Of a stretch of 64,000 nt of DNA, positions 7,188 through 18,314 are shown one piece after another (position 1 is the first letter of the stretch; each line of letters begins with the position of its first letter). The notes below the pieces were generated by a model, which worked only from the letters and a program-made list of their open reading frames with translations, was not told the DNA's origin and did not search any database. Origin of the DNA: Actinocorallia herbida (GTDB taxonomy: Bacteria > Actinomycetota > Actinomycetes > Streptosporangiales > Streptosporangiaceae); assembly GCF_003751225.1 (NCBI RefSeq), contig NZ_RJKE01000001.1:5766001-5830000 (forward strand), given 5' to 3'. A program made the translations under genes and the position numbers.

Positions 7188-7212
7188 GACAACGGTAACG
7201 AAACTCATTGTC
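7188..7212. promoter_or_regulatory. Degenerate Zur-like box upstream of the permease pair
   Basis: GACAACG (7188-7194) and CATTGTC (7206-7212) form an imperfect inverted repeat; the inner 19 bp GGTAACGAAACTCATTGTC also resembles a 9-1-9 Zur palindrome. It sits 20 bp before the permease GTG. It is a weaker match than the boxes at 10839 and 18290, so the assignment rests mainly on gene content (YraQ/TIGR03943 pairs are often in Zur regulons). Confidence 0.4.
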
Positions 7213-7232
7213 GTTAGTGGGAGCATGGGCGG

Positions 7233-8258
7233 GTGACACACCCCCATGCGTCCGACCGCCTCGAAGGACCCCAGCGGTCCTCCCCTTCCGCCCGCCGAAC
7301 CGCGCGTTCCTCCCCGGGCTCGGACGCGGTATGGCTGCTGTTCGCCCTCGGCTCCATCGTGGTGCTCATCCGGGCGTACGTCGCCCCCGTCCTCACCCAG
7401 GAAGCAGTCCTGGCATGGGCGACGATCTTCGTCGCCATCTGCGTGCAGGCGCTGCCTTTCCTGGTGTTCGGGGTCGCGCTCTCCGCCGCGATCACCGCGT
7501 TCGTACCCGCACGAACCTGGCAGCGGCTGCTGCCCCGCAACGGGGCCGCGGCGGTTCCCGTCGCCGGTATCGCGGGCGCCGTCCTTCCTGGGTGCGAGTG
7601 CGCCTCCGTGCCCGTCGCCGGCGGGCTCATGGCGCGCGGGGTCGCGCCCGCCGCCGCGTTGACCTTCCTGCTGGCGGCACCGGCGATCAACCCGATCGTG
7701 ATGGTCGCGACGGCGGTCGCGTTCCCCGGACAGCCCGGCATGGTCGCGGCCCGGTTCGGTGCCTCGCTCCTCGTGGCGGTGCTCGCCGGATGGGCGTGGC
7801 TGCGCTTCGGCAAGGCCGAGTGGATCCGCATCCCCGCGCCCCCCGCGCACGACAGCGGCAAGTGGGACGCCTACCGCCAGGCCGCCCGGCACGACCTCAT
7901 GCACGCGGGCGGCTTCCTCATCGTCGGCGCGATCGCCGCGGCCACCATCAACGTCGCCGTGCCGGCGGCATGGGTGAACGCGGTCGCCGGCATCCCCTGG
8001 GCGTCAGTGCTGGTCCTCGCGGTGCTCGCCGTGCTGATGTCGATCTGCTCCGAGGCCGACGCGTTCGTCGCGGCCAGCCTGACCTCCTTCTCCCCCACCG
8101 CCAAGCTCGCGTTCCTCGTGGTCGGCCCGATGGTCGACCTGAAGCTCATCGCCATGCAGACCGGCTTCTTCGGCCGGGACTTCGCCCTGCGGTTCGTCCC
8201 CCTCACCTTCGTGCTGGCCGTCGCCGTCAGCTCTGCCTTCGGAGCCCTTTTCCTGTGA
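7233..8258 (+). CDS. YraQ/DUF318-type permease (341 aa)
   Basis: Integral membrane protein of the UPF0718/COG0701 family, with two blocks of hydrophobic helices. The conserved core motif is PGCECASVPVAGGLMARG at about residue 112, with a C-x-C element reminiscent of the ArsP metalloid permeases, then AAPAINPIVMVATAVAF. The second half repeats the pattern (SEADAFVAASL). The GTG start overlaps no neighbour; the proline/serine-rich N-terminal ~30 residues precede the first helix. The stop overlaps the GTG of the next gene. In actinobacteria this pair recurs near zinc-regulated ribosomal protein paralogues and CobW proteins, as here. Transport of zinc or a zinc complex is an inference; the substrate is unknown. 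Confidence 0.85.
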   Translation: MTHPHASDRLEGPQRSSPSARRTARSSPGSDAVWLLFALGSIVVLIRAYVAPVLTQEAVLAWATIFVAICVQALPFLVFGVALSAAITAFVPARTWQRLLPRNGAAAVPVAGIAGAVLPGCECASVPVAGGLMARGVAPAAALTFLLAAPAINPIVMVATAVAFPGQPGMVAARFGASLLVAVLAGWAWLRFGKAEWIRIPAPPAHDSGKWDAYRQAARHDLMHAGGFLIVGAIAAATINVAVPAAWVNAVAGIPWASVLVLAVLAVLMSICSEADAFVAASLTSFSPTAKLAFLVVGPMVDLKLIAMQTGFFGRDFALRFVPLTFVLAVAVSSAFGALFL

Positions 8259-8977
8259 CCCGTGCCTTCCAGAACATGCTCATGCTGGTGCTCGGCGGCA
8301 CGATCCTGTGGATCACGCTCGTCACCGGCCAGGTCACCGACTACGTCAAGCCCGGCCTGCGGTATCCGCTCATCGCCTGCGCCGTGGTGCTGCTCGCCCT
8401 CGGCGCCGCGGGAATGCGGCGTGACTGGCACGCAGACCCCGACCATGGCCCGGACGACCACGCGGGCCATCACCACAGCGGGCCGCGCACCGGATGGCTG
8501 CTGTGCCTGCCGGTCCTGGTGATCCTCGCCATCGCGCCGCCCGAACTCGGCGCGTACACCGCCTCGCGAGCCGCCGAGCAGCCGGCGCCGCTTCCCGCGG
8601 CTCTCAGTGACCTCCCGCTCCTGCCGAGCGAGCCTGATCCGCTGCCCCTGACGATCTTCGAGTTCCTGCAGAGGTCCTACCAGGCACAGCTCGGCGAGGC
8701 GCCCACGCTGATGGGCAGGAGCGTCCAGCTGACCGGCTTCGCCGTCCGCAGCGAGAACGGCACATGGGCGGTCGGCCGTCTCCAGATGAGCTGCTGCGCA
8801 GCCGACGCCGTCGCCCTCACCGTGGAAGTACTCGACGCTCCCGCTCCAGCGGACGGCACCTGGATCGAGGTCACCGGCTTCTGGCGGCCCGCGGGCGATC
8901 CACAGGGCCCTCCCGTCTACCAGATCCGCGCGCAGGACGTCGCACGCATCGACAAGCCCGACTTCGTCTACGAATGA
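8255..8977 (+). CDS. TIGR03943-family partner protein, His-rich (240 aa)
   Basis: Starts at GTG 8255 within the stop of the permease gene, so the two are coupled. The N-terminus has two hydrophobic helices joined by a loop (near residues 60-77) rich in His and Asp, HADPDHGPDDHAGHHHSG, likely a metal-binding loop. A third helix follows, then a soluble C-terminal domain with the conserved QMSCCAADA motif (adjacent Cys pair) and a beta-rich end. This is the layout of TIGR03943 putative permease subunits, which nearly always accompany a COG0701 permease. The His loop and CC motif support a role with a transition metal, most simply zinc. Confidence 0.82.
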   Translation: MTRAFQNMLMLVLGGTILWITLVTGQVTDYVKPGLRYPLIACAVVLLALGAAGMRRDWHADPDHGPDDHAGHHHSGPRTGWLLCLPVLVILAIAPPELGAYTASRAAEQPAPLPAALSDLPLLPSEPDPLPLTIFEFLQRSYQAQLGEAPTLMGRSVQLTGFAVRSENGTWAVGRLQMSCCAADAVALTVEVLDAPAPADGTWIEVTGFWRPAGDPQGPPVYQIRAQDVARIDKPDFVYE

Positions 8978-9024
8978 CGTCCCGTAGAGCGCGTCATCCC
9001 TGTGGGCGGTGATGAGGCATGCGG

Positions 9025-9590
9025 TCAGCGGTCGTGCAGCGTGTCGTGCCGCAGCGCGGTGCCGATGAAGACGAGTTCCTGGCCTTCGGGTGAGGCGTCG
9101 TCGACGGTCGCGAACGGCTCCAGGCGGATGACGGGCCCTGCCTGGGACCACAACGCCGCGGTGGAGGGACGGCTCGCGAGACGGCAGAAGCCCTTCACCC
9201 TCAGGACGCCGCCCGCACCGCGGAATCCTTCGCCGATGAGGTCCCACAGGCGCTGGGGGTGGAAGGGCCGCGGGGAGCGGAAGACCAGGCTGGAGAGGTG
9301 CAGCAGATGCATCCGTTCGACAGCTCCACCAGCCGCTCGTCGGTGCGCGACAAGGCTCCTCCGTCGCCGCGACGTTCGCCTTCGGCGAGTACGAGGACGA
9401 CGACCGGACCATCACCGACCTGCTCATCGGCCAGATCGCGGATCAGGTCGGCGTCGATGTTCACCTCGCTCAGGTCGTTGACGATGACCGCGGTGCGCAG
9501 GCCGTCGCGGTTGTTGAGCACGTGGTTCAGCAGGGTCGTCTTGCCCGCGCCCAGGAACCCGGACAGAACGGTGACGGGCAGCGCAGGCGC
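9025..9590 (-). pseudogene. CobW-type zinc GTPase with large internal deletion
   Basis: Reading leftwards from 9581: the canonical CobW start [22 protein letters not shown] with an intact P-loop, then [16 protein letters not shown], then the metal motif SNGCICCT. Immediately after this the frame shifts and the next recognisable sequence is the C-terminal domain ([17 protein letters not shown] ... GQELVFIGTALRHD). The middle ~180 residues, including Walker B and NKxD regions, are missing. It is the last gene downstream of the ribosomal-protein operon, where actinobacteria often carry cobW. Without the switch and base-binding regions it cannot be an active GTPase. No clear start codon is visible upstream of LPVTV. 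Confidence 0.88.
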
Positions 9591-9681
9591 ACAGGCGCTG
9601 GTGAGGTCAAGGGATCTCTCTCGTTGGCGAAGCCCGGGCCCCCTCGGCGCGCGAGGGAGCCCGGGTGCGGGACGCGGTCCG

Positions 9682-9846
9682 TCAGCGGGCCAGCAGGCCG
9701 CGCTGGTAGGCGCGGATCAGGCGGCGCGGCACCTGGATCTGCTCGCCGTCGACCGTCACCGGGGTGAGGGCGGGCCGGTCGGCCTTCCACTGGGCCCGGC
9801 GGGTGCGGGTGTTGCTGCGGGACTTCTTGCGTTTGGGGACTGCCAT
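9682..9846 (-). CDS. rpmF: 50S ribosomal protein L32, zinc-free paralogue (54 aa)
   Basis: Protein starts [20 protein letters not shown], the standard L32 N-terminus, but has no cysteine at all, whereas the housekeeping L32 carries a four-Cys zinc ribbon. It ends [12 protein letters not shown]. Preceded by GGAG and 10 bp downstream of rpsN in the same operon. Cys-free paralogues replace their zinc-binding counterparts in the ribosome during zinc starvation, releasing zinc; that role is inferred from the family and from the Zur-like box at the head of this operon. Confidence 0.93.
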
Positions 9847-9856
9847 GGCGGGCTCC

Positions 9857-10162
9857 TTACCAGCTGGACTTGGTGACGCCGGGCAGCTCGCCGCGGTGGG
9901 CCATCTCCCGGAAGCGGACGCGGGACAGGCCGAAGCGGCGCAGGTGGCCGCGGGGCCGTCCGTCGACGGCGTCGCGGTTGCGCAGCCGGGTCGCGCTCCC
10001 GTCGCGCGGCTGGCGGGCCAGCTCCCGGGAGGCTTCGGCCTTGATCTCCAGCGACGTGTGCGGGCTGGAGATGATCCGCTTCAGCTCGGCGCGGCGGGCC
10101 GCGTGGCGGGCGACGACCTCACGACGGCGCACGTCGGCGGCGATCTTGCTCTTCTTGGCCAT
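9857..10162 (-). CDS. rpsN: 30S ribosomal protein S14, zinc-free type (101 aa)
   Basis: Long-form S14 ([20 protein letters not shown] ... [27 protein letters not shown]). It lacks the CxxC...CxxC zinc motif of the short S14 type and contains no cysteine. Its ATG overlaps the stop of the L28 gene (ATGA). Binds 16S rRNA in the small-subunit head. Part of the zinc-starvation set rpmG-rpmE2-rpmB-rpsN-rpmF. Confidence 0.95.
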
Positions 10163-10398
10163 CAGACCTTCACTCCCCGGGCGCGCATGCGGCGGACGGC
10201 CGCCTCGATCCCGATCTTGTCGATCGTCTTCATGCCGCGCGCCGACAGCTTGAGCTTCACGGTGCGCCGCTCGCTCGGCAGGAAGTAGCGCTTGGTCTGG
10301 ATGTTCGGGTCGAACCGGCGGTTGGTGCGGCGGTGGGAGTGCGAGACGCGCTTGCCGAAGCCGGGCTTGGTGCCGGTGAGCATGCAGACGGCGCTCAT
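10162..10398 (-). CDS. rpmB: 50S ribosomal protein L28 paralogue (78 aa)
   Basis: Starts [20 protein letters not shown] and continues with the L28 core [12 protein letters not shown]. Zinc-type L28 has CxxC (CDVCGKKP...); here the second Cys is replaced (CMLTG), leaving a single Cys5, so a zinc site cannot form. The ATG overlaps the L31 stop by 4 bp (10395-10398). Length matches the family. It is the third gene of the operon led by rpmG. Confidence 0.95.
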
Positions 10399-10643
10399 TT
10401 GGCGGCCCCGTAGCGCTGCCGGAACCGCTCGACGCGTCCCGCGGTGTCGAGTGTGCGGTTGCGGCCGGTGTAGAAGGGGTGGCTCGCGGAGGAGACGTCG
10501 ACGTCGATGACGGGGTAGGTGTTGCCGTCCTCCCACGCGATGGTCTTGTCGCCGGTGGCGGTGGAGCGGGTCAGGAAGGCGTAGTCGGCGGACGCGTCGC
10601 GGAAGACGACGGGCCGGTACTCCGGGTGGATGCCCGGTTTCAT
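10395..10643 (-). CDS. rpmE2: 50S ribosomal protein L31 type B (82 aa)
   Basis: [20 protein letters not shown] ... [20 protein letters not shown] is the type B (YtiA-like) L31, which has no zinc-binding cysteines. In many bacteria this form is repressed by Zur and substitutes for the zinc-containing type A protein when zinc is scarce. The ATG abuts the stop codon of rpmG, only 0 bp apart, so they are co-transcribed. Confidence 0.96.
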
Positions 10644-10808
10644 CTAGCGGTCCTCTCGGTAGGTCACGTGCCTGCGCACGATCGGGTCGTACTTGCGCAG
10701 CACCAGGCGGTCGGGGCTGTTGCGGCGGTTCTTGCGGGTCACGTACGTGTGACCCGTCCCCGCGGTGGATCTCAGCTTGATCAGGGGGCGGAGTTCGGTT
10801 CGTGCCAC
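10644..10808 (-). CDS. rpmG: 50S ribosomal protein L33, zinc-free paralogue (54 aa)
   Basis: Reads [20 protein letters not shown] with the L33 signature [19 protein letters not shown], and no cysteines, so it is the non-zinc form. GTG start at 10808 follows AAAGGA. It is the promoter-proximal gene of the five-gene ribosomal operon; the Zur-like box at 10839-10862 lies 31 bp upstream of its start codon, well placed to block the promoter. Confidence 0.94.
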
Positions 10809-10838
10809 CTTGTGTCCTTTCCGGTCTCAGGCCATGCC

Positions 10839-10862
10839 ATGATAATGAAAATGATTATCGTT
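10839..10862. promoter_or_regulatory. Zur-like box between divergent promoters
   Basis: The AT-rich palindrome GATAATGAAAATGATTATC (10841-10859; arms GATAAT/ATTATC, 9-1-9 layout) closely resembles actinobacterial Zur sites. It lies in the 71-bp gap between rpmG (leftward) and the CobW-like gene (rightward) and could repress both directions from one site. The surrounding DNA is GC-rich, so the run stands out. The regulator itself is not encoded in the window. Confidence 0.85.
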
Positions 10863-10879
10863 GCAAGTGAGGTTACGTC

Positions 10880-12034
10880 ATGACCGTCCCCGTCGTCCTG
10901 GTCGCCGGGCTGCACGGACCCGCGCGGGCCGCCGTCGTCGACCGGCTGCTGCGCGAGCAGCCGAACGCGGTCGCGATCCACCACGATCTGCGCGGCATCA
11001 CCGCGGACCGGATCGTGCGCGTCGTGCGCGACGCCCGGAACATCGCCGAGCGGACCGAAGTCGAACTGGAGCACGGCTGCGTGTCGTGCACCGTGCGCGA
11101 GGACCTGATCCCGCAGCTGCTGCGCTACGCCGTCACCGCGTCCGTGCTGGTGGTGGACCTGTGGGACTGCGTCGAGCCCCGTATGGTCGCCGACGCGCTC
11201 GGCCACGCCGAAGAGGCCAGGGGCCGGCTCCGGCTCACCGGCGTGCTCACCGCGCTGGACGCCGAGCACATGCCCGCAGACCTGTGCCGGGGCGACCTGC
11301 TCACGGAAGCGGGCAAGGCGGGGTCCGCGGGCGATCCCCGCTATGTGGCCGAGGTCCTGGCGCGGCAGATCGAGTACGCCACCTCCCTGATGCTGCCCGA
11401 GCTGATGCCCGCCCCCCTGCCCGGCGTACCCGAGGAAGACCTCGACCTGTGCCGGGAGATCCTCTCCCACCTCGCGCCCGCGACGCCCGTCATCGCCACC
11501 ACCGACCCGCTGCCGCCGGTCACCGGTCCCGCGCTGTGCGCCCGCGAACTGGGCCTGCGCGTCGATCCGGCCACCGCGCTGCTGCCGTGCGACATCCACA
11601 CCGACGCCGTCGACACCGTCGTCTGGCGGGCCCGCCGCCCCCTGCACCCCGCCCGGTTCTTCGACGCCGCCGACACCCTCGCGTCCGAGACCGTGCGCAG
11701 CCGCGGCCGCTTCTGGCTCGCCAACCGGCCCGACCGGATGATCGCCTGGGACGCCGTCGCCGGCGTCGTCGGCATCGAGGACGCCGGCACCTGGCTGGCC
11801 GCGCTGCCCTCTGATGCCTGGGACGAGCTGCCCGCCGCCCGGACGCTGGCGGCCGACCTCGACTGGTGCGCCGAGCACGGCGACCGGGTGCAGCACCTCG
11901 TGTTCACCGGCCCCGACCTCGACCGCGTCCGCATCCACCGCCTCCTGGACGCCTGTCTCCTGGCGCCCGGGGAATCCCCCGAATCCGACGACGACCCCTT
12001 CGCCGCCTTCTTCGACGTCAAGGAGACCGCATGA
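10880..12034 (+). CDS. CobW-like protein lacking a P-loop (384 aa)
   Basis: Shows the CobW/COG0523 layout: a partial metal motif [11 protein letters not shown] near residue 73 (canonical GCICC reduced to GCVSC), a central [12 protein letters not shown] and VLTALDAEH, and a CobW C-terminal domain ([15 protein letters not shown] ... [10 protein letters not shown] ... QHLVFTG). However, where the Walker A should be the sequence is [17 protein letters not shown], without GK(S/T), so GTP binding by the usual mode is unlikely. ATG 10880 follows GTGAGG. It runs from the Zur-like box and its stop overlaps rpsR2. It may be a regulatory or zinc-binding partner of the true CobW that is deleted at 9025-9590. 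Confidence 0.85.
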
Positions 12035-12267
12035 GCCACCCGCGCGACCGCCGCCCCCGCCCCAAGAAGAATCCACTTCACGGCGTCACCTACATCGACT
12101 ACAAGGACACCGACCTCCTGCGGAAGTTCATCAGCGACCGCGGCAAGATCCGCAGCCGCCGTGTCACCGGCGTCACCGTCCAGCAGCAGAAGCAGATCGC
12201 CGCCGCCATCAAGAACGCCCGCGAGATGGCACTTCTGCCGTACGGCGACCGCAGCTCCGCCCGCTGA
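12031..12267 (+). CDS. rpsR: 30S ribosomal protein S18, zinc-free paralogue (78 aa)
   Basis: S18 core: [38 protein letters not shown] and [11 protein letters not shown]. No cysteine, whereas the housekeeping actinobacterial S18 has a zinc-type CxxC element near its N-terminus. ATGA overlap with the CobW-like gene shows coupled translation. It completes the set of alternative ribosomal proteins in this island. Confidence 0.95.
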
Positions 12268-12320
12268 TCCTCGGAACGTCCCGCCCGACCGGTTCCTCCT
12301 TCTGGGCATGGGCGGGGCTG

Positions 12321-12352
12321 CTCCCCGGCGGCGCGTGCACGCCGCCGGGGAG
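12321..12352. terminator. Bidirectional hairpin between convergent operons
   Basis: Perfect 13-bp inverted repeat CTCCCCGGCGGCG / CGCCGCCGGGGAG with a 6-nt loop, located between the ends of rpsR (rightward) and the double ATPase (leftward). It probably ends transcription from both sides. The rest of 12268-12450 shows no gene. Confidence 0.75.
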
Positions 12353-12450
12353 CCCCCGCGCTCGCATGAACCATGGACCGGGCCTGCTCGCCCGGCCCGC
12401 AGACTGATCTTCTGTAGGCAGACGCCCTGATGATGAACACCGGACGGGGG

Positions 12451-13869
12451 CTATCCACCCCGGGGCTGTCTCCTGTCGGCGACCCCGGCCGGTCGCCGGC
12501 CCCTCTCTTGTAGCGCCCTTCCTTCCTTCAGGGCGATCACCCGCTGGGCGGAACGTGCCACGACGATCGGGTCATGGGTGATCAGGATGAGCGTCGTGCG
12601 AAGACCGGTGACGAGATCGAGGATGTCGGCCTGGGTCAGGGGGTCCAGGGCCGAGGTGATCTCGTCGCAGATGAGAACGTCGGGGTCGGCGAGCACGGCT
12701 CTGGCGATGCCGGCCCGCTGGAGTTCTCCACCGGACAAGGTGCGGGCCGGCCTTCCGCTCGTCTCGGCCGGGAGGCCCATGTTCTCCAGGAGCACGCCCG
12801 CCTCGCGAGCCGCCACAGCGGTCGGCAGGCCGCGTAGGCGCACGGCGGTCCTGGCGACTTGATCAAGGATCCGGCCGCCGGGCGCGAACGTGGCGCGGGG
12901 GTCCTGGAAGATGTACTGGACGCGGGCGAGTTCGGCGCGGTTCCGGCGGAGCGACAGGCGCTGCCCGTGCAGGGCGATGGTGCCCGCAGTCGGCCGGTGC
13001 AGGCCGGCGAGGCATCGTGCGAGCGTCGTCTTCCCGCTACCGGAGCTGCCGACTATCGCCAGCCTCTCTCCTGCCGCCATGTCCAAGTCGATGCCGCGCA
13101 GGACGGGACCTTGATACGCCGCGGTCAGGTCGCGCACCGTGAGGATCGGTGGACCCGGCCGCTCTGCCGCGACGGGGTTTTCGACAGGCCGCGCCGCTTC
13201 GACCAGGGCTCGCGCGTAGTCGCTGCGCGGCCGGCCCAGAATGTCCGGACCGGCCTCCTGGACCCGTCCGCCGCGCAAGACGATGACGTGGTCGGCCAAG
13301 CGCCGGACGAGATCGAGGTCGTGCGACAGCACGATGGTCGTGATGGGCAGCGCGGCGAACGTCGCGGTCAGCTCTGCGCGGGTTCTCGGGTCCTGGCCTG
13401 TCGTCGGCTCGTCGGCGACGAGGACTTTCGGGGCCGCCAGGAGGATCTGGGCGAACGCGAGTCGTTGCTGCTGGCCGCCTGACAGCTGGTGCGGGAACCG
13501 GCGGAGGAACTCCGTGTCGGCAGGCAGGCTGGCGGCGGCGAGCACTCCCGGCACCGAGGTTCCGTGCAGACGGCTGAGTTCGCGCAGGACCGAGCCGATC
13601 CGGCGCACCGGGTTCAGCACCGTTGAAGGGTGCTGCGGCAGATATGCGACGTCACCGCGGCGCGGCGGCCACCGTCCGTCGATCGCGATGCGGCCGCTCA
13701 TCTCGCTTCCGGGTGGGAGTTGGCCGAGCAGGGCGAGGCCGGTCGTGGTCTTCCCACTTCCCGAGGCCCCCACCAGGGCGATGGTCTGCCCTTCCTTCGC
13801 GGTGAAGGTCATTGCGTCGACGAGGGCGCGGCCGTTGAGGGTGACCTTCAGGTCGGCGACGTTGATCAT
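12451..13869 (-). CDS. Double ABC ATPase for opine/peptide-type importer (472 aa)
   Basis: Two nucleotide-binding domains in one chain, equivalent to fused DppD-DppF or CntD-CntF. First domain: Walker A GASGSGKTT near residue 32, signature LSGGQQQRLAFA, Walker B VLVADEPTTGQDP. Second domain: GSSGSGKTTLARCLAGLHRP, signature LSGGELQRAGIA, Walker B VLICDEITSALDP. Start ATG 13869 overlaps the stop of the preceding permease (ATGA). The C-terminus is short and Arg/Gly-rich, without the usual oligopeptide-permease Cys cluster. It energises the permease pair just upstream; it is the last gene of the operon that starts with the MFS exporter. Confidence 0.92.
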   Translation of the reverse strand: MINVADLKVTLNGRALVDAMTFTAKEGQTIALVGASGSGKTTTGLALLGQLPPGSEMSGRIAIDGRWPPRRGDVAYLPQHPSTVLNPVRRIGSVLRELSRLHGTSVPGVLAAASLPADTEFLRRFPHQLSGGQQQRLAFAQILLAAPKVLVADEPTTGQDPRTRAELTATFAALPITTIVLSHDLDLVRRLADHVIVLRGGRVQEAGPDILGRPRSDYARALVEAARPVENPVAAERPGPPILTVRDLTAAYQGPVLRGIDLDMAAGERLAIVGSSGSGKTTLARCLAGLHRPTAGTIALHGQRLSLRRNRAELARVQYIFQDPRATFAPGGRILDQVARTAVRLRGLPTAVAAREAGVLLENMGLPAETSGRPARTLSGGELQRAGIARAVLADPDVLICDEITSALDPLTQADILDLVTGLRTTLILITHDPIVVARSAQRVIALKEGRALQERGRRPAGVADRRQPRGG

Positions 13870-14621
13870 GTCCTGCTCCTCAATGCGCGGTCGAAGGCGA
13901 GGTTCAGCCCGACCGACAGCATGATGATCATGAGGGCGGGTGCGAGGGCGGCCCACGGATTGAGCAGCGTCCCGGCGCGGTTGCGCTCGATCATGACCGC
14001 CCAGTCCGCGGCGTCGGGGGCCACGCCGATGCCGAGGAAGCTCGCGGCTGCGACGAGGTAGAGGGTCCCGGTCAACCGGGTCCCGGCGTCGGCCGCCACG
14101 ACCCGGGCGGCCGAGCCTCCGACGTGCCGGACCGTCGTGCGCCACCAGCTCTCGCCCTGCATCCGCAGCGCGTCCATGAGCGGGCCGTGCGCGGCCTCCA
14201 GCGCGGTCGCCCGTACGAGCCGCGCGACGTCGGGCAGATGGATGAGCATCACGATCCAGGTCAGCCCCGAGGCGGGTAGGAGGGTCGCGAGCAAGAGCAT
14301 CAGGAACAGTGCCGGAACGGCGAGCAGGAGATCCAGCGGTCGCATCAGCGCCTCGTCCACCAGGCGGCTGCGGGCGGTCGCCGCGGTCAGGCCCCACAGC
14401 GCGCCGAAGAGGTACGCGCCGGCCGTCGCGGTGAAGGCGACGACGACCAGCGTGCGGCCGCCAAGAAGGATCTGCTGCCAGACGTCTCGTCCGGCGAAGT
14501 CGGTGCCGAGCCATCCGCCGCCCGGATCATAGGACGTTCCCGTGACGGCGCCGCTGTCGGAGGCCAGCCACGGTCCTGCGAGGGCGATGAACAGCGGGAT
14601 CGTGAGGAGGAGACGTCTCAT
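13866..14621 (-). CDS. DppC/CntC-type ABC permease (251 aa)
   Basis: Membrane subunit with an N-terminal helix, a periplasmic segment containing YDPGGGWLGTDFAGRDVWQQIL (typical HPLGTDxxGRD motif of DppC/NikC), and about five further helices. The cytoplasmic coupling loop reads LVRATALEAAHGPLMDALRMQG. Start is ATG 14621, overlapping the stop of the partner permease by 4 bp (ATGA). Forms the heterodimeric channel with the gene upstream; substrate delivered by the lipoprotein at 15529-17064. Confidence 0.9.
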   Translation of the reverse strand: MRRLLLTIPLFIALAGPWLASDSGAVTGTSYDPGGGWLGTDFAGRDVWQQILLGGRTLVVVAFTATAGAYLFGALWGLTAATARSRLVDEALMRPLDLLLAVPALFLMLLLATLLPASGLTWIVMLIHLPDVARLVRATALEAAHGPLMDALRMQGESWWRTTVRHVGGSAARVVAADAGTRLTGTLYLVAAASFLGIGVAPDAADWAVMIERNRAGTLLNPWAALAPALMIIMLSVGLNLAFDRALRSRT

Positions 14622-15532
14622 GCTCGGGGGGCCAATCGGAAGGCGGCGAAGTCCGCGGTGAGGTTCGCCAGGACCGTGGTGGCCGCGAAGACGAGCGCGA
14701 GTCCTTGCAGGACGGGCAGGTCCCGGTCGGCGACCGCGTCGGCGAGGACCGTGCCGAGCCCGGGTACGACGAAGACCGCCTCGACGATGATCACGCCGCC
14801 GAGCAGCCAGTCGACCGTCCGGGCGAGTTGCTGAACGGCGGGAGTCACGGCGTTGGGCAGCGCGTGCAGATACCGCACCCGCCGCGCGGGGACGCCGAGC
14901 CGGGCGGGGTGGGCGGTGTACCCGGCATGCAGCGCGCCGATCATGCCCGCGCGGACCAGGCGGCTCAGCGAACACAGCGGCCGGGCCAGCATCACCGCGA
15001 CGGGCGGCACCATCGCAGCCGGGGTGAGCCCGCCGAGCGCGGTCACCGGGAGGATGCCGCTGAGCGCGGTGATGAACACGATCGCGAGGGCGAACTCCGG
15101 AACCGCGTACAGGCCGACGGCGATCGCGGTGAACGCCTTGTCGAACCTCCCGCCTTCGCGCAGCGCCGCGGCGACGCCGAGTACCGCTGCCAGGGGAAGG
15201 AGGAGCGCGAGTGTGGCCGAGGCGAGCAGGAGCGTGGGTCCCAGCGCTTCGCCGAGGATGGCGCTGACCGGCCGGTCGGAGACCAGGGAGTGGCCGAGGT
15301 CGCCGCGGAGCAGCCCGCCCAGCCAGTCGGTGAACCGCTCGCTCAGCGGCCGGTCCAGGCCGAGCGCCTGGCGGATCTGGGCGATCCGCTCGGGGTCGGG
15401 GTCGTCTCCGGCGATGATGACGGCGGCGTCGCCCGGCAGGAGGTCGGACAGCAGGAAGACCGCCGAGGCGACGGCGGCCACCTGCGCGAGCGCGAGGGCC
15501 AGCCGCCGCCCGACGTACCGGGGGGTGATCAA
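14618..15532 (-). CDS. DppB/CntB-type ABC permease (304 aa)
   Basis: Starts ITPRYVGRRLALALAQVAAV, the characteristic N-terminus of DppB/NikB permeases. Then the LLPGDAAVIIAG-type segment, the RIAQIRQALGLDRPL motif and RGDLGHSLVSDRPV. About six hydrophobic helices. The coupling-loop region is LSRLVRAGMIGALHAGYTAHPARLG. Overlaps the SBP gene by 4 bp at its start and the next permease by 4 bp at its end, so SBP-permease-permease-ATPase is one tightly coupled unit. Confidence 0.92.
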   Translation of the reverse strand: MITPRYVGRRLALALAQVAAVASAVFLLSDLLPGDAAVIIAGDDPDPERIAQIRQALGLDRPLSERFTDWLGGLLRGDLGHSLVSDRPVSAILGEALGPTLLLASATLALLLPLAAVLGVAAALREGGRFDKAFTAIAVGLYAVPEFALAIVFITALSGILPVTALGGLTPAAMVPPVAVMLARPLCSLSRLVRAGMIGALHAGYTAHPARLGVPARRVRYLHALPNAVTPAVQQLARTVDWLLGGVIIVEAVFVVPGLGTVLADAVADRDLPVLQGLALVFAATTVLANLTADFAAFRLAPRA

Positions 15533-17064
15533 GCCAGTTCGACCTTGTCGAACCGGGCCCAGTCGAGGCTGTTCGCGGGTGCTGACACGACTCCCTTCAC
15601 GTTGTCGGCAGTGGCGACGATCCAGTCCGCGAACCCCCAGACGAGCAGGCCGCCTTCGGCGTGCAGCATTCGCTGCATGTCCAGGTAGGCGGCGTCACGG
15701 TCGGCGGCCTTCGATGAGGAGACGGCCTTGTCGTAGAGGGCGTCGAACTCCGGCCGCTTCCAGTGGGTGGCGTTGGTGGTGGAGTTGGTGAGGAGCCTTT
15801 GGGAGATGTGGGTCTCGATGGGCATCGCGCCGGAGCGGAAGCTCGCCAGGGAACCCTTGGTGAGGATGTCGGCCCAGTAGGTGTCCTTGTTCGCGGTCTT
15901 GATCTCCGCTTTCAGGCCCGCGGCGCGGATCTGTTCGGCGAAGACGGTGGCGGCCTCGACGAATCCGGCGGCGACGGGCGCGGTGGTGAGCTCGATCGTC
16001 GTGCCGACGGCACCGGCCTTGGCGATGAGGGACTTGGCCCGGTCGAGGTCGAGCTCACGCTGGGGGATGTCGGCGGCGTAGTGCTGGTAGCCCTTGCCGA
16101 ACAGGTCGTTGCCGATCTGCCCGGCGCCGGGCATGACGGTGTCGACGAGCTGCTGCCGGTCGGTCAGCAGGAACATCGCCTCGCGCAGGTCCTCGTTGTT
16201 GAAGGGCGGCCGGTCGACCTTCATCGCGAAGGCCTGCATGGCGCTGTTGGGCGACTTGACGAACGCGGCGCGGTTCTCGTGCTGGCGGGCGAGGGCGGGC
16301 GACAGGTCGTGGGCGTATTCGGCCTGGCCGCCCAGGAGCGCGTTCATGCGGGCGGTCTCCTCGTTGGCGATGAGGATTTCCAGTTCGGCGATGCGCGGGG
16401 CGCCGTCCCAGTAGGCGGGGTTGGCCTTGAGGAGCACGGAGCTGCCGGGCTTCCAGGACACGAAGGAGAACGGGCCCGACCCGACCGGCTCGGTGAAGTC
16501 GGTGTGGCCCTCGGGGATGATGTGGGTGCCGAAGGCGGCGAGCACGTTCGGGAACTCCGCGAACGGCTTCGTCAGGGCGAACTCGACGGTGCGGTCGTCG
16601 GACGCCCGGCTGGCCTTGAGGTCGATGAGGGCGAGGCTGGACTTGGCCCGGTAAGTGGCATTCGGGTCGAGGATGCGGGCGTAGCTGGCGAGCACGTCGG
16701 CGGAGGTGACCGCCTTGCCATTGTGGAACGCGGCCTCGCGCAGCCGGATCCGCCAGATGGTGAAGTCGGCGTTCGGCTCCCAGCTCTCGGCCAGGCGGGG
16801 CACGGGCGCGATGTCGGGGCCGAGGTCGGCGAGCTTGTCGAACATGGCCTTGGTACGGGCCGCCTCGTTGAACAGGTTGGCCAGGTGCGGGTCGAGCGTC
16901 TCGGTCGCGCCGCCACCGGCGAACACCGCGCGCAACCGGCCACCGGACCTGGACGAGGAAGAGGGCGGGCCTCCGCAGCCGGTGAGCAAGGCCGCGCCCG
17001 CCGCCATGCCGAGGCCGAGGACGTGACGTCGGCTGAAAGAGTGATTCACAGGGGATTCCTTCAT
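15529..17064 (-). CDS. Lipoprotein substrate-binding protein, SBP_bac_5 family (511 aa)
   Basis: Extracytoplasmic receptor of the nickel/peptide/opine class (NikA, CntA, DppA relatives). N-terminus FSRRHVLGLGMAAGAALLTG then C: a twin-arginine-like start plus lipobox, so it is probably anchored as a lipoprotein. Body: TLDPHLANLFNEAARTKAMF, PRLAESWEPNADFTIWRIRL, FHNGKAVTSADVLASYARI, all diagnostic of SBP family 5. Located between the MFS exporter and the permeases. A Zur-like box upstream of the operon suggests the ligand is a zinc (or similar) metallophore complex rather than a peptide; this is inference. Confidence 0.92.
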   Translation of the reverse strand: MKESPVNHSFSRRHVLGLGMAAGAALLTGCGGPPSSSSRSGGRLRAVFAGGGATETLDPHLANLFNEAARTKAMFDKLADLGPDIAPVPRLAESWEPNADFTIWRIRLREAAFHNGKAVTSADVLASYARILDPNATYRAKSSLALIDLKASRASDDRTVEFALTKPFAEFPNVLAAFGTHIIPEGHTDFTEPVGSGPFSFVSWKPGSSVLLKANPAYWDGAPRIAELEILIANEETARMNALLGGQAEYAHDLSPALARQHENRAAFVKSPNSAMQAFAMKVDRPPFNNEDLREAMFLLTDRQQLVDTVMPGAGQIGNDLFGKGYQHYAADIPQRELDLDRAKSLIAKAGAVGTTIELTTAPVAAGFVEAATVFAEQIRAAGLKAEIKTANKDTYWADILTKGSLASFRSGAMPIETHISQRLLTNSTTNATHWKRPEFDALYDKAVSSSKAADRDAAYLDMQRMLHAEGGLLVWGFADWIVATADNVKGVVSAPANSLDWARFDKVELA

Positions 17065-17097
17065 TGATCGACCGCCTTGAAAGCGGAAACAAGGGGT

Positions 17098-18243
17098 TCA
17101 GACAGGCCGCAGCGCGGCACGTCGGCCGATGGCGAGCGCGCCGAGAGCGCACAGCAGGCCGATGGCCGCGCAGAGGAAGGCGCCCGCGCCCTCCGCTGCT
17201 CCGATGAGGGCGGTGCTGGCCGCGGCGACGACGCCGGACACGAGGTAGAAGACACCGAAGTAGGTGCCCGACAGGCGCTCTCCACCCACGTCGCCGATCA
17301 GCGCGTAGGCGAACGGCTGGGTGATGATCACGCCGATCTCCAGGCAGACGACCGCGAGCAGCACCGGAACGAGGCCGGGCAGGAGCGCGGGGGCGAGGAA
17401 CCCGGCGCCCATGACGGCGAGCCCTGCCGCCATCACCGCGTACCGGTTCTTCGTGCAGGACAGCTGCCGGGTGATGCGGACCTGGAGCAGCAGGGTCGCT
17501 GCGGTGCCGACGAGGAAGAGCAGCGCGGCCGACTCCGCGCGGCCGGTCGCGTCGCGGGCTGCGAGCGGAAGGACGAGGTAGAGCTGGTTCTGCAGGGCGA
17601 ACATGCCGCTCAGGGCGAGGGTGAACGCGAGGAAGCGCCGGTCGGTCAGGCAGCGGCGCCAGTCCCCCAGCACCGTCGTGTCTCTCGGCGGCACTTCGCG
17701 GGCCGGGAGCGCCAGCGCCTGCGCCGCCGTCAGGACCGTGAAGATTCCGGCCGCGACCAGCGCGGAGAGGCGAAAGTCCACGAACAGCGGAGCGGCGCCC
17801 AGCAGCGGCCCGAACAGGGCGCCGGCCTGAGCGAACACGTTGAACAGTGCGAACGCCGCGGCCTTGTCATCGGACTCGACGGCGATGTAGGCGCGCACCG
17901 CAGGGTTGAACAGCGCCCCCGCGACCCCGCTGAGCGCGGCGGCGCCCAGCAGCACCGGCAGCGAGGTGCCGAGGGCGAACAGGGCGAAGCCGACGGCCCG
18001 CAGCGCGCACCCGGCGATGATGACGCGCCTCGCGCCGAGCCGGTCGGCCGCGCTGCCGCCGATGAGGAACAGTCCCTGCTGGCTGAGGTTGCGCACGCCC
18101 AGCACCACGCCGACCAGCGCCGCGGACATGCCCAGGCTGTCGGTGAGGTGCGTCGCCAGGTACGGGATCAGCAGGTAGAAGCCGGTGTTGACGCCGAACT
18201 GGTTGACCAGCAGGAGGCGTACCGCCCAGGGCTGTTTCCGCAT
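17098..18243 (-). CDS. MFS transporter, CntE-like candidate metallophore exporter (381 aa)
   Basis: Twelve-helix major facilitator. The start is taken at ATG 18243 (RKQPWAVRLLLVNQFGVNTG); an upstream in-frame extension to 18447 would run through the Zur-like box and is cysteine/arginine-rich, so rejected. MFS motif A is GGSAADRLGARRVI after helix 2. It is first in the operon, followed 33 bp later by the SBP. An MFS exporter together with a family-5 SBP importer under a zinc repressor matches the Staphylococcus aureus cnt locus, where CntE exports staphylopine. A drug-efflux role remains possible. Confidence 0.85.
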   Translation of the reverse strand: MRKQPWAVRLLLVNQFGVNTGFYLLIPYLATHLTDSLGMSAALVGVVLGVRNLSQQGLFLIGGSAADRLGARRVIIAGCALRAVGFALFALGTSLPVLLGAAALSGVAGALFNPAVRAYIAVESDDKAAAFALFNVFAQAGALFGPLLGAAPLFVDFRLSALVAAGIFTVLTAAQALALPAREVPPRDTTVLGDWRRCLTDRRFLAFTLALSGMFALQNQLYLVLPLAARDATGRAESAALLFLVGTAATLLLQVRITRQLSCTKNRYAVMAAGLAVMGAGFLAPALLPGLVPVLLAVVCLEIGVIITQPFAYALIGDVGGERLSGTYFGVFYLVSGVVAAASTALIGAAEGAGAFLCAAIGLLCALGALAIGRRAALRPV

Positions 18244-18289
18244 GATCCCGCATTCGCTTGCGGCAGGTCGTGGACGACCCGCTCCGGGC

Positions 18290-18314
18290 GAAAACGATAA
18301 TGATTTCCGTTTTC
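18290..18314. promoter_or_regulatory. Zur-like box upstream of the MFS/ABC operon
   Basis: GAAAACG ... CGTTTTC, a perfect 7-bp inverted repeat spanning 25 bp with an AT-rich core ATAATGATTTC. It ends 47 bp before the MFS start codon. It shares the GATAATGA string with the box at 10841. This is the main evidence that the whole five-gene transporter operon belongs to the zinc-starvation response. Confidence 0.78.

Follow-up and report, generated by a model that had tools for sequence, protein, structure and literature searches.

Gene content of the transport operon

We analysed a stretch of 64,000 nucleotides from Actinocorallia herbida (contig NZ_RJKE01000001.1, positions 5,766,001 to 5,830,000; henceforth the window), focusing on a minus-strand transport operon (18243-12451). 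In this operon a Zur-type box stands ahead of genes for a major facilitator superfamily (MFS) transporter, a family 5 substrate-binding protein (SBP) and the DppB- and DppC-type permeases and double ATPase of an ATP-binding cassette (ABC) importer (Table 1). The box lies 46 bases from the MFS start and the MFS and SBP genes are 33 bases apart, while the remaining junctions are 4-base overlaps (TTGA between the SBP and DppB-type genes, ATGA between the two permease genes and ATGA again between the DppC-type and ATPase genes). The gene order and overlaps among the ABC genes had been described in an earlier note made from the sequence alone, and its coordinates and overlaps all proved correct. 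The SBP N-terminus carries a lipobox-like sequence (..LLTGC), and each half of the ATPase contains, as read from the translation, Walker A and LSGGQ-type motifs.

No listed NCBIfam model was matched at its cut-off by the SBP (11 models), the MFS transporter (10) or the permeases (14 and 12), nor was any among the best 25 of 195 models for the ATPase. Specifically, the best hit of the SBP was Opp5A_nikA (123 bits, cut-off 600), followed by SapA (93), DppA (82) and, lower, CntA (53.2, cut-off 800), meaning that among the 11 models it scored below every equivalog cut-off that marks a known substrate class (NikA, DppA or OppA importers). The solved structures nearest to it by sequence were assorted family 5 SBPs, with none decisive among the best 60 of 86 matches. 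The nearest model to the MFS transporter was MdtH (157 bits, cut-off 469).

Table 1. Features of the transport operon and the adjoining zinc-starvation island (window coordinates)
Feature	Position	Strand	Details
Zur-type box heading transport operon	18290-18314	.	GAAAACGATAATGATTTCCGTTTTC; matrix score 36.4
MFS transporter, putative metallophore exporter or recycler	17098-18243	-	381 aa; PF07690
SBP family 5 lipoprotein, putative metal-metallophore receptor	15529-17064	-	511 aa; PF00496, 250 bits
DppB/NikB-type permease	14618-15532	-	TTG start; PF00528 and PF19300
DppC/NikC-type permease	13866-14621	-	PF00528
Fused double ABC ATPase (DppD+DppF type)	12451-13869	-	two ABC_tran stretches
rpsR2-type ribosomal protein S18	12031-12267	+	TIGR00165; 0 Cys
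COG0523/CobW-type GTPase, putative YciC/ZigA-like role	10880-12034	+	PF02492 and PF07683
Zur-type box between ribosomal-paralogue operon and COG0523 gene	10841-10865	.	GATAATGAAAATGATTATCGTTGCA; matrix score 38.0
rpmG2-type ribosomal protein L33	10644-10808	-	TIGR01023; 0 Cys
rpmE2, type B ribosomal protein L31	10395-10643	-	NF002462, 138 bits (cut-off 86); 0 Cys
rpmB2-type ribosomal protein L28	10162-10398	-	TIGR00009; 1 Cys
rpsN2-type ribosomal protein S14	9857-10162	-	NF006477; 0 Cys
rpmF2-type ribosomal protein L32	9682-9846	-	assigned from the translation; 0 Cys
DUF1980-type membrane protein	8255-8977	+	PF21537 above cut-off, PF09323 just below
ArsP_1-type permease behind third box	7233-8258	+	PF03773; start uncertain
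Third Zur-type box	7194-7218	.	GGTAACGAAACTCATTGTCGTTAGT; matrix score 26.4

Zur-type boxes and the link to zinc

The box heading the operon forms a near-palindrome (12-1-12) whose arms pair at 10 of 12 positions. By itself this is weak evidence, because 15 mostly GC-rich sites within the 64 kb pair at no fewer than 10 of 12 positions. Independent support for a Zur-type site comes from a published motif and from the genome's own znuA-znuC-znuB-Fur-family operon (genes assigned by family matches), which carries the same kind of box, GATTTTGACAATCGTTTTCATTTTC. Excerpts of PMC5472717 give the Streptomyces coelicolor Zur motif as tGaNNatSatNNtCa; read directly against its 11 specified positions, the operon box (at 18290) agrees at 8, the box at 10846 at 10 and the box at 7199 at 8. 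A matrix was also trained on promoter boxes from orthologous operons other than that of the window (39 distinct boxes at 54 sites). With this matrix the best window site outside the three boxes scored 9.8, and no position reached 22.1 in 20 Mb of random order-1 Markov sequence, although the scores are not fully independent as the training boxes were chosen with a pattern derived from the window's own boxes.

A strict pattern, likewise derived from the window's three boxes, occurred at 5 distinct places (6 rows) in the 9.8-Mb genome and at none in the reversed control, and three of the five, including the operon box, fall within an 11-kb stretch of the window. At the other two (C1:6399315 and 7675602) the genes overlapped or adjoined have no readable metal link, and both were set aside as likely chance matches. 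With a pattern of middle stringency, 27 rows at 23 distinct places were obtained, compared with 4 and 0 in the controls, and one of the four AT-rich places inspected was the znu-zur operon. The loose published motif matched 169 times per strand (control: 16), most of the first places looking coding, and another Zur pattern gave 0 matches. We thus consider Zur control of the operon very likely; the Zur-like box that had been proposed at its head is confirmed by the matrix score, the strict pattern and the znu-zur box.

A zinc-starvation island (7194-12267), absent from the earlier note, converges on the operon. Its second box separates minus-strand genes for L33, L31, L28, S14 and L32 paralogues from plus-strand genes for a COG0523 GTPase and S18, and genes of this kind are among the S. 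coelicolor Zur targets named in excerpts of PMC6103462. Given that the operon faces Cys-poor ribosomal paralogues, a COG0523 GTPase and two further Zur-type boxes, we regard its predicted link to zinc as strong. Within the same island, the intact COG0523 gene has a broken counterpart next to it: two overlapping minus-strand frames (9025-9521) match the N-terminal (PF02492) and C-terminal (PF07683) parts of a CobW/COG0523 protein.

Most orthologous loci carry a putative biosynthesis gene set

Genomes were scanned for six short peptide patterns, all taken from the SBP, and the counts below describe the catch of that scan. It returned 64 loci, 53 of which (L045-L097) encode an SBP 56-76% identical over the best segment. 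The window proteins are 73-76% (SBP) and 72-75% (MFS) identical to those of L045-L047. In one of these, Nonomuraea rhodomycinica (L047), a box is followed by genes for an ATP-grasp ligase whose C-terminal domain is of the L-amino acid ligase type, a DUF364 protein, an SbnA-like pyridoxal phosphate (PLP) enzyme (246 bits to the SbnA model, under its cut-off of 350), an enolase-superfamily protein nearest to DgcA and Ala-Glu epimerases, the MFS transporter, a methyltransferase, the SBP, the permeases and the ATPase, with reading frames that touch or overlap through the SBP. Neither a non-ribosomal peptide synthetase (NRPS) nor an SbnB-type gene was among the cluster genes identified.

The full cluster, defined as matches to all seven L047 query proteins at more than 80 bits each, is present at 41 of the 53 loci. 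MFS and ABC genes alone, the make-up of the window, are found at two (L045, L082), the same genes plus the methyltransferase at one (L058) and the ABC genes alone at nine (L053-L057, L087, L088, L092, L094). A head box with at most one mismatch precedes 51 of the 53 loci (exceptions: L049, L087), and L070 ends inside the importer. Across 42-43 aligned rows, residues of the enzymes that are likely to be catalytic are near-invariant, among them Lys40 in the SbnA-like enzyme and, in the enolase-type protein, the KxK motif and acidic residues. Among 150 family genomes, a close SBP orthologue (at least 62% identity) was found in 6, our genome included, and an ATP-grasp orthologue (1e-80) in 1.

Three of these loci have features of their own. 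In Streptomyces philanthi (L097), an insect symbiont, the SBP, permeases, MFS and ATP-grasp were matched in broken-looking pieces, suggesting decay; it was counted as full and dropped from the trees. Window-like neighbours were seen at 2 of the 53 loci: in S. himastatinicus (L077, 14694-15018) a Zur-type box and L28/S14 paralogues come after the full cluster, and in N. fuscirosea (L045, 20383-21509) the MFS and ABC genes lie near relatives of the window ArsP_1 and DUF1980 genes.

Candidate biosynthesis genes in the A. herbida genome

The A. herbida genome (G000; one contig) contains no match to the ATP-grasp ligase at E<=1e-20 and none to DUF364 at 1e-10, and no remnant of the cluster enzymes was found in the window, where alone the enolase-type protein and the methyltransferase were sought. 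This upholds the earlier observation that local biosynthesis genes are absent. ATP-grasp matches of at least 61% identity were present in 4 of the 19 genomes searched, all with the full cluster (G141, G523, G524, G525), other matches being at most 39% identical. DUF364 was found in 5 of 16 genomes, three with the full cluster (64-100%) and two Kribbella with ABC-only loci (44-45%).

The genome does encode an SbnA-like protein, 60% identical to the cluster enzyme, paired with an MFS paralogue that is 45% identical to the window MFS (C1:3259467-3261976). At this locus (L137, C1:3248000-3267900; 10974-17453) a small His-rich open reading frame, the PLP enzyme and the MFS gene are followed by what we read as FecBCD-type genes. 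The pair recurs in 7 of 7 genomes inspected and stands beside genes read as ArsR- and CDF-type in L138, L141 and L142; it is possibly a chelator-export unit for another metal. A scan for copper-type operators ahead of the pairs gave 1 of 7 (L140, near divergent copper-type genes). Both MFS subfamilies, cluster-type and pair-type, adjoin an SbnA-like enzyme. This lends support to a role of the MFS family in carrying the products of such enzymes.

Phylogeny and conservation of the uptake genes

Trees were quick searches without bootstrap, comprising 65 rows for the SBP and 32 of 60 sequences for the MFS transporter (eight were dropped as duplicate, weak or broken and the rest thinned). In both trees the window falls in a clade with the full loci L046 and L047 and the MFS-ABC locus L045 (SH-aLRT 99), joined in the SBP tree by the ABC-only locus L034. 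The outgroup of the 65-row tree did not lie on one side of a branch, as L039 grouped with ingroup rows. A minimum of 7 changes between full and reduced loci was needed on a 57-row SBP tree. Two reduced loci, L082 (MFS and ABC) and L058 (MFS, methyltransferase and ABC), are placed among full Streptomyces loci, where loss of biosynthesis would be the simplest reading.

The uptake genes of the window are intact, with open frames and 206 of the 224 SBP columns that are conserved in full-cluster rows; for the MFS transporter the figure is 163 of 176. For comparison, L047 left out of its own training retains 216 of 229 SBP and 172 of 181 MFS columns (the conservation set of 41 full rows consisted of 40 of the 41 loci plus L035).

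A probable receiver locus for a shared zincophore

The operon is probably a receiver or 'cheater' locus: the transport genes of a Zur-controlled actinomycete metallophore system, retained in a lineage that lacks the genes for making the metallophore. Because Zur control is very likely, the transport half is present and the biosynthesis genes are absent, uptake of a foreign chelator is the best reading of the data. Metallophore transport, Zur control and uptake from neighbours, as the earlier note had suggested, thus remain favoured, but kinship with the staphylopine Cnt system does not (see below).

According to this model, Zur would leave the box at 18290-18314 when zinc is scarce, and the MFS and ABC genes would be switched on along with the adjoining genes for zinc sparing (those for the Cys-poor ribosomal paralogues and the COG0523 GTPase). 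The SBP lipoprotein would capture a zinc-loaded small chelator from other actinomycetes (Streptomyces, Nonomuraea, Lentzea and others), DppBC and the double ATPase would import it and zinc would be released inside; the MFS transporter may then re-export the emptied chelator, which would explain why some non-producers keep it. Producers would make the chelator with the ATP-grasp ligase, SbnA-like PLP enzyme, DUF364 protein, enolase-superfamily epimerase-like protein and methyltransferase. Excerpts of PMC12751119 describe SbnA- or cysteine-synthase-like enzymes that join O-phosphoserine to an amino acid and, given this chemistry and the presence of a ligase, the chelator is most likely an aminopolycarboxylate or a diaminopropionate-type peptide. 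More tentatively, and with appreciably less confidence than in the receiver role itself, we propose that this enzyme set (ATP-grasp, SbnA-like C-N bond former, DUF364, epimerase and methyltransferase) defines an undescribed class of Zur-controlled zincophore that acts as a public good: biosynthesis would have been dropped repeatedly and transport kept, and the MFS of some non-producers would recycle the emptied zincophore, its task going beyond the export of new product.

Several observations weigh against the receiver interpretation. The operon box fits the published Zur motif at just 8 of 11 positions. That an exporter should persist without a product to carry is odd, recycling by the MFS transporter is a guess and none of the nine ABC-only loci has an MFS gene of this kind close by. 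As the genome holds the SbnA-like enzyme and MFS paralogue described above, some chelator may be home-made. Nor need a reduced locus mean a non-producer everywhere, because two ABC-only Kribbella genomes hold a DUF364 relative elsewhere in the genome, in one case inside a second Zur-boxed cluster. At this Kribbella locus (L148, G522; 7893-15859) a Zur-type box accompanies genes for an SBP (49% identical to that of L047), permeases and an ATPase, together with a different MFS, DUF364 (43%) and a distant SbnA-like enzyme (31%). The combination of importer, PLP enzyme, DUF364 and exporter thus recurs outside the main family as a second architecture, and an ABC-only locus is no proof that its genome makes none of these chelators. 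The parsimony count on the tree cannot separate gain from loss. The window also has longer branches than L045-L047 (SBP: 0.33 vs 0.08-0.12; MFS: 0.46 vs 0.08-0.18), which could reflect ligand drift or relaxed constraint, and in the 20 kb of its sister locus L034 (G130), which has the ABC genes alone, there is no box at up to one mismatch.

Alternative explanations

One alternative, which we judge improbable, is self-supply: the SbnA-like enzyme at C1:3259467-3260702 would make a simpler chelator, its own MFS would export it and the window importer would retrieve it. The similarity of the pair to the cluster enzyme and the window MFS speaks for this, but its 20-kb stretch has no Zur-type box at up to one mismatch, and the same kind of pair is present in the full-cluster genomes G141 and G523 and is therefore no substitute for the cluster. 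ATP-grasp and DUF364 would still be missing, and the neighbours of the pair (FecBCD-type here, ArsR- and CDF-type in three relatives) point to another metal task. We thus rejected the pair at C1:3.26 Mb as the missing biosynthesis. About equally unlikely is that the full cluster makes an already published zincophore, e.g., of the [S,S]-ethylenediaminedisuccinate (EDDS) type, and that just the receiver form has gone unremarked. Amide bonds are absent from the EDDS structure, which also requires no methylation, whereas the cluster encodes both a methyltransferase and an ATP-grasp enzyme whose C-terminal domain is of the L-amino acid ligase type. In favour of the idea, excerpts of the literature place EDDS under Zur control and report that Zur sites led to its genes in an actinomycete, and SbnA-type enzymes make aminopolycarboxylate precursors (excerpts of PMC12751119).

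We give very little credence to an ordinary dipeptide, opine or nickel importer that, with an unrelated MFS, neighbours zinc genes by chance. The generic domain families and the best SBP hit (Opp5A_nikA) would suit it, but no listed SBP model reached its cut-off, and the recurrence of head boxes (51 of 53 orthologous loci) and of one co-resident enzyme set (41 of 53) argues against coincidence. Least probable, and already largely refuted, is a staphylopine-type Cnt shuttle with CntKLM encoded elsewhere in the genome. The locus had been said to mirror Cnt, and this holds for the MFS-SBP-B-C-ATPase order and the Zur-type box but fails at the level of gene kinship. The CntM family PF10100 had no match in any of 150 family genomes, our own included (no positive control matched in the family search, and CntL was not searched in our genome). 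The search itself works, as among 394 genomes of the class the same model found one, G379, with a match at E 7e-196. The absence of CntKLM noted for the window thus extends, as far as tested, to CntM-family genes in the whole genome, and a CntM-type opine dehydrogenase elsewhere in the genome, which the earlier note had proposed to look for, did not turn up. Further points against Cnt are the CntA score of the SBP (53 of 800 bits) and the short, weak alignments of the window MFS (best 23.5 bits) with the MFS beside the CntKLM-like locus of G379, itself only a putative CntE. No opine-export model was among the NCBIfam matches of the window MFS (whether the library holds one was unchecked). Cnt membership was thus rejected, as was the idea that DUF364 might be a CntL in disguise, for which hhalign gave a probability of 0.1 (percent scale) in a comparison with the CntL-like protein of G379.

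Related loci elsewhere

The G379 locus itself (L040) combines CntK-, CntL- and CntM-like genes (PF10100 at 652 bits; NCBIfam CntK, CntL and CntM models matched under their cut-offs) with MFS and FecBCD-type genes, next to window-like ribosomal paralogues and a Zur-like box. Two further loci, L043 (G067) and L044 (G016, from the window's genus), carry SBP5-ABC relatives (36-38%) at about 9-17 kb beside very large genes that we read as polyketide synthase-like (2174 and 2123 aa), with a Zur-like box, GAACGTGATAATCATTTTCACACAT, at L043; this type is a further candidate metallophore cluster, present in the window's genus. At L041 and L042 a Zur-like box and a CooC-like ATPase gene lie beside an SBP5-ABC importer, and in our genome (L146, C1:7782500-7790000) a CooC-like gene stands beside genes read as CbiMNQO-type, with a similar AT-rich palindrome. 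For DUF6153 no paper was found in the open literature.

Comparison with known systems

The predicted zincophore cluster is conserved in Streptomyces, Nonomuraea, Lentzea and relatives, and no description of a Zur-controlled ATP-grasp/DUF364/SbnA cluster was found in the open literature (subscription journals lay outside the search, and this is no proof of novelty). Its full and reduced loci would provide a natural series of producers and receivers in which zinc sharing in soil could be tested. Metallophore recycling could be examined directly in the non-producers that have kept the MFS, and the enzyme set points to a new, short pathway for metal-chelating amino acids.

The earlier note knew of no well-studied actinobacterial equivalent, a statement to be softened, as Zur-controlled coelibactin and [S,S]-EDDS (excerpts of PMC6103462) and mapped actinobacterial CntM clusters (excerpts of PMC7438024) are known. 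[S,S]-EDDS (aes, Amycolatopsis japonicum) is, as far as those excerpts go, similar in its actinomycete origin and Zur control and possibly in related amino-acid chemistry. The ligase and methyltransferase set our cluster apart from it, a distinction drawn from the EDDS structure and not from a comparison with aes sequences. Coelibactin of S. coelicolor is likewise a Zur-controlled actinomycete metallophore cluster, but the excerpts describe an enterobactin-type zincophore cluster (SCO7676-92), and by that description it differs from the cluster here, which shows no NRPS. The diaminopropionate chemistry of aspergillomarasmine and staphyloferrin B (AMA synthase, SbnA) shares an SbnA-like C-N joining enzyme (excerpts of PMC12751119); unlike staphyloferrin B chemistry, our cluster has an SbnA-like enzyme below the model cut-off and no identified SbnB-type gene.

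The staphylopine Cnt system (CntKLM-E-ABCDF) resembles the window in its Opp-type ABC importer, MFS, Zur-type box and transport-half gene order. By contrast, the two ATPases of the window are fused, its SBP lies far under the CntA cut-off and the predicted producers among its relatives use ATP-grasp, DUF364, SbnA-like, enolase-type and methyltransferase proteins, not CntKLM. Finally, metallophore cheater loci have been published, namely CntA, SirA or HtsA without biosynthesis in Staphylococcus (excerpts of PMC12709192) and a case in Bordetella petrii (excerpts of PMC12971057), and the window is like them in that uptake is retained and biosynthesis is missing. Unlike these loci, as the excerpts present them, the A. 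herbida operon would serve another metallophore, has also retained the MFS and abuts a zinc-sparing ribosomal island.

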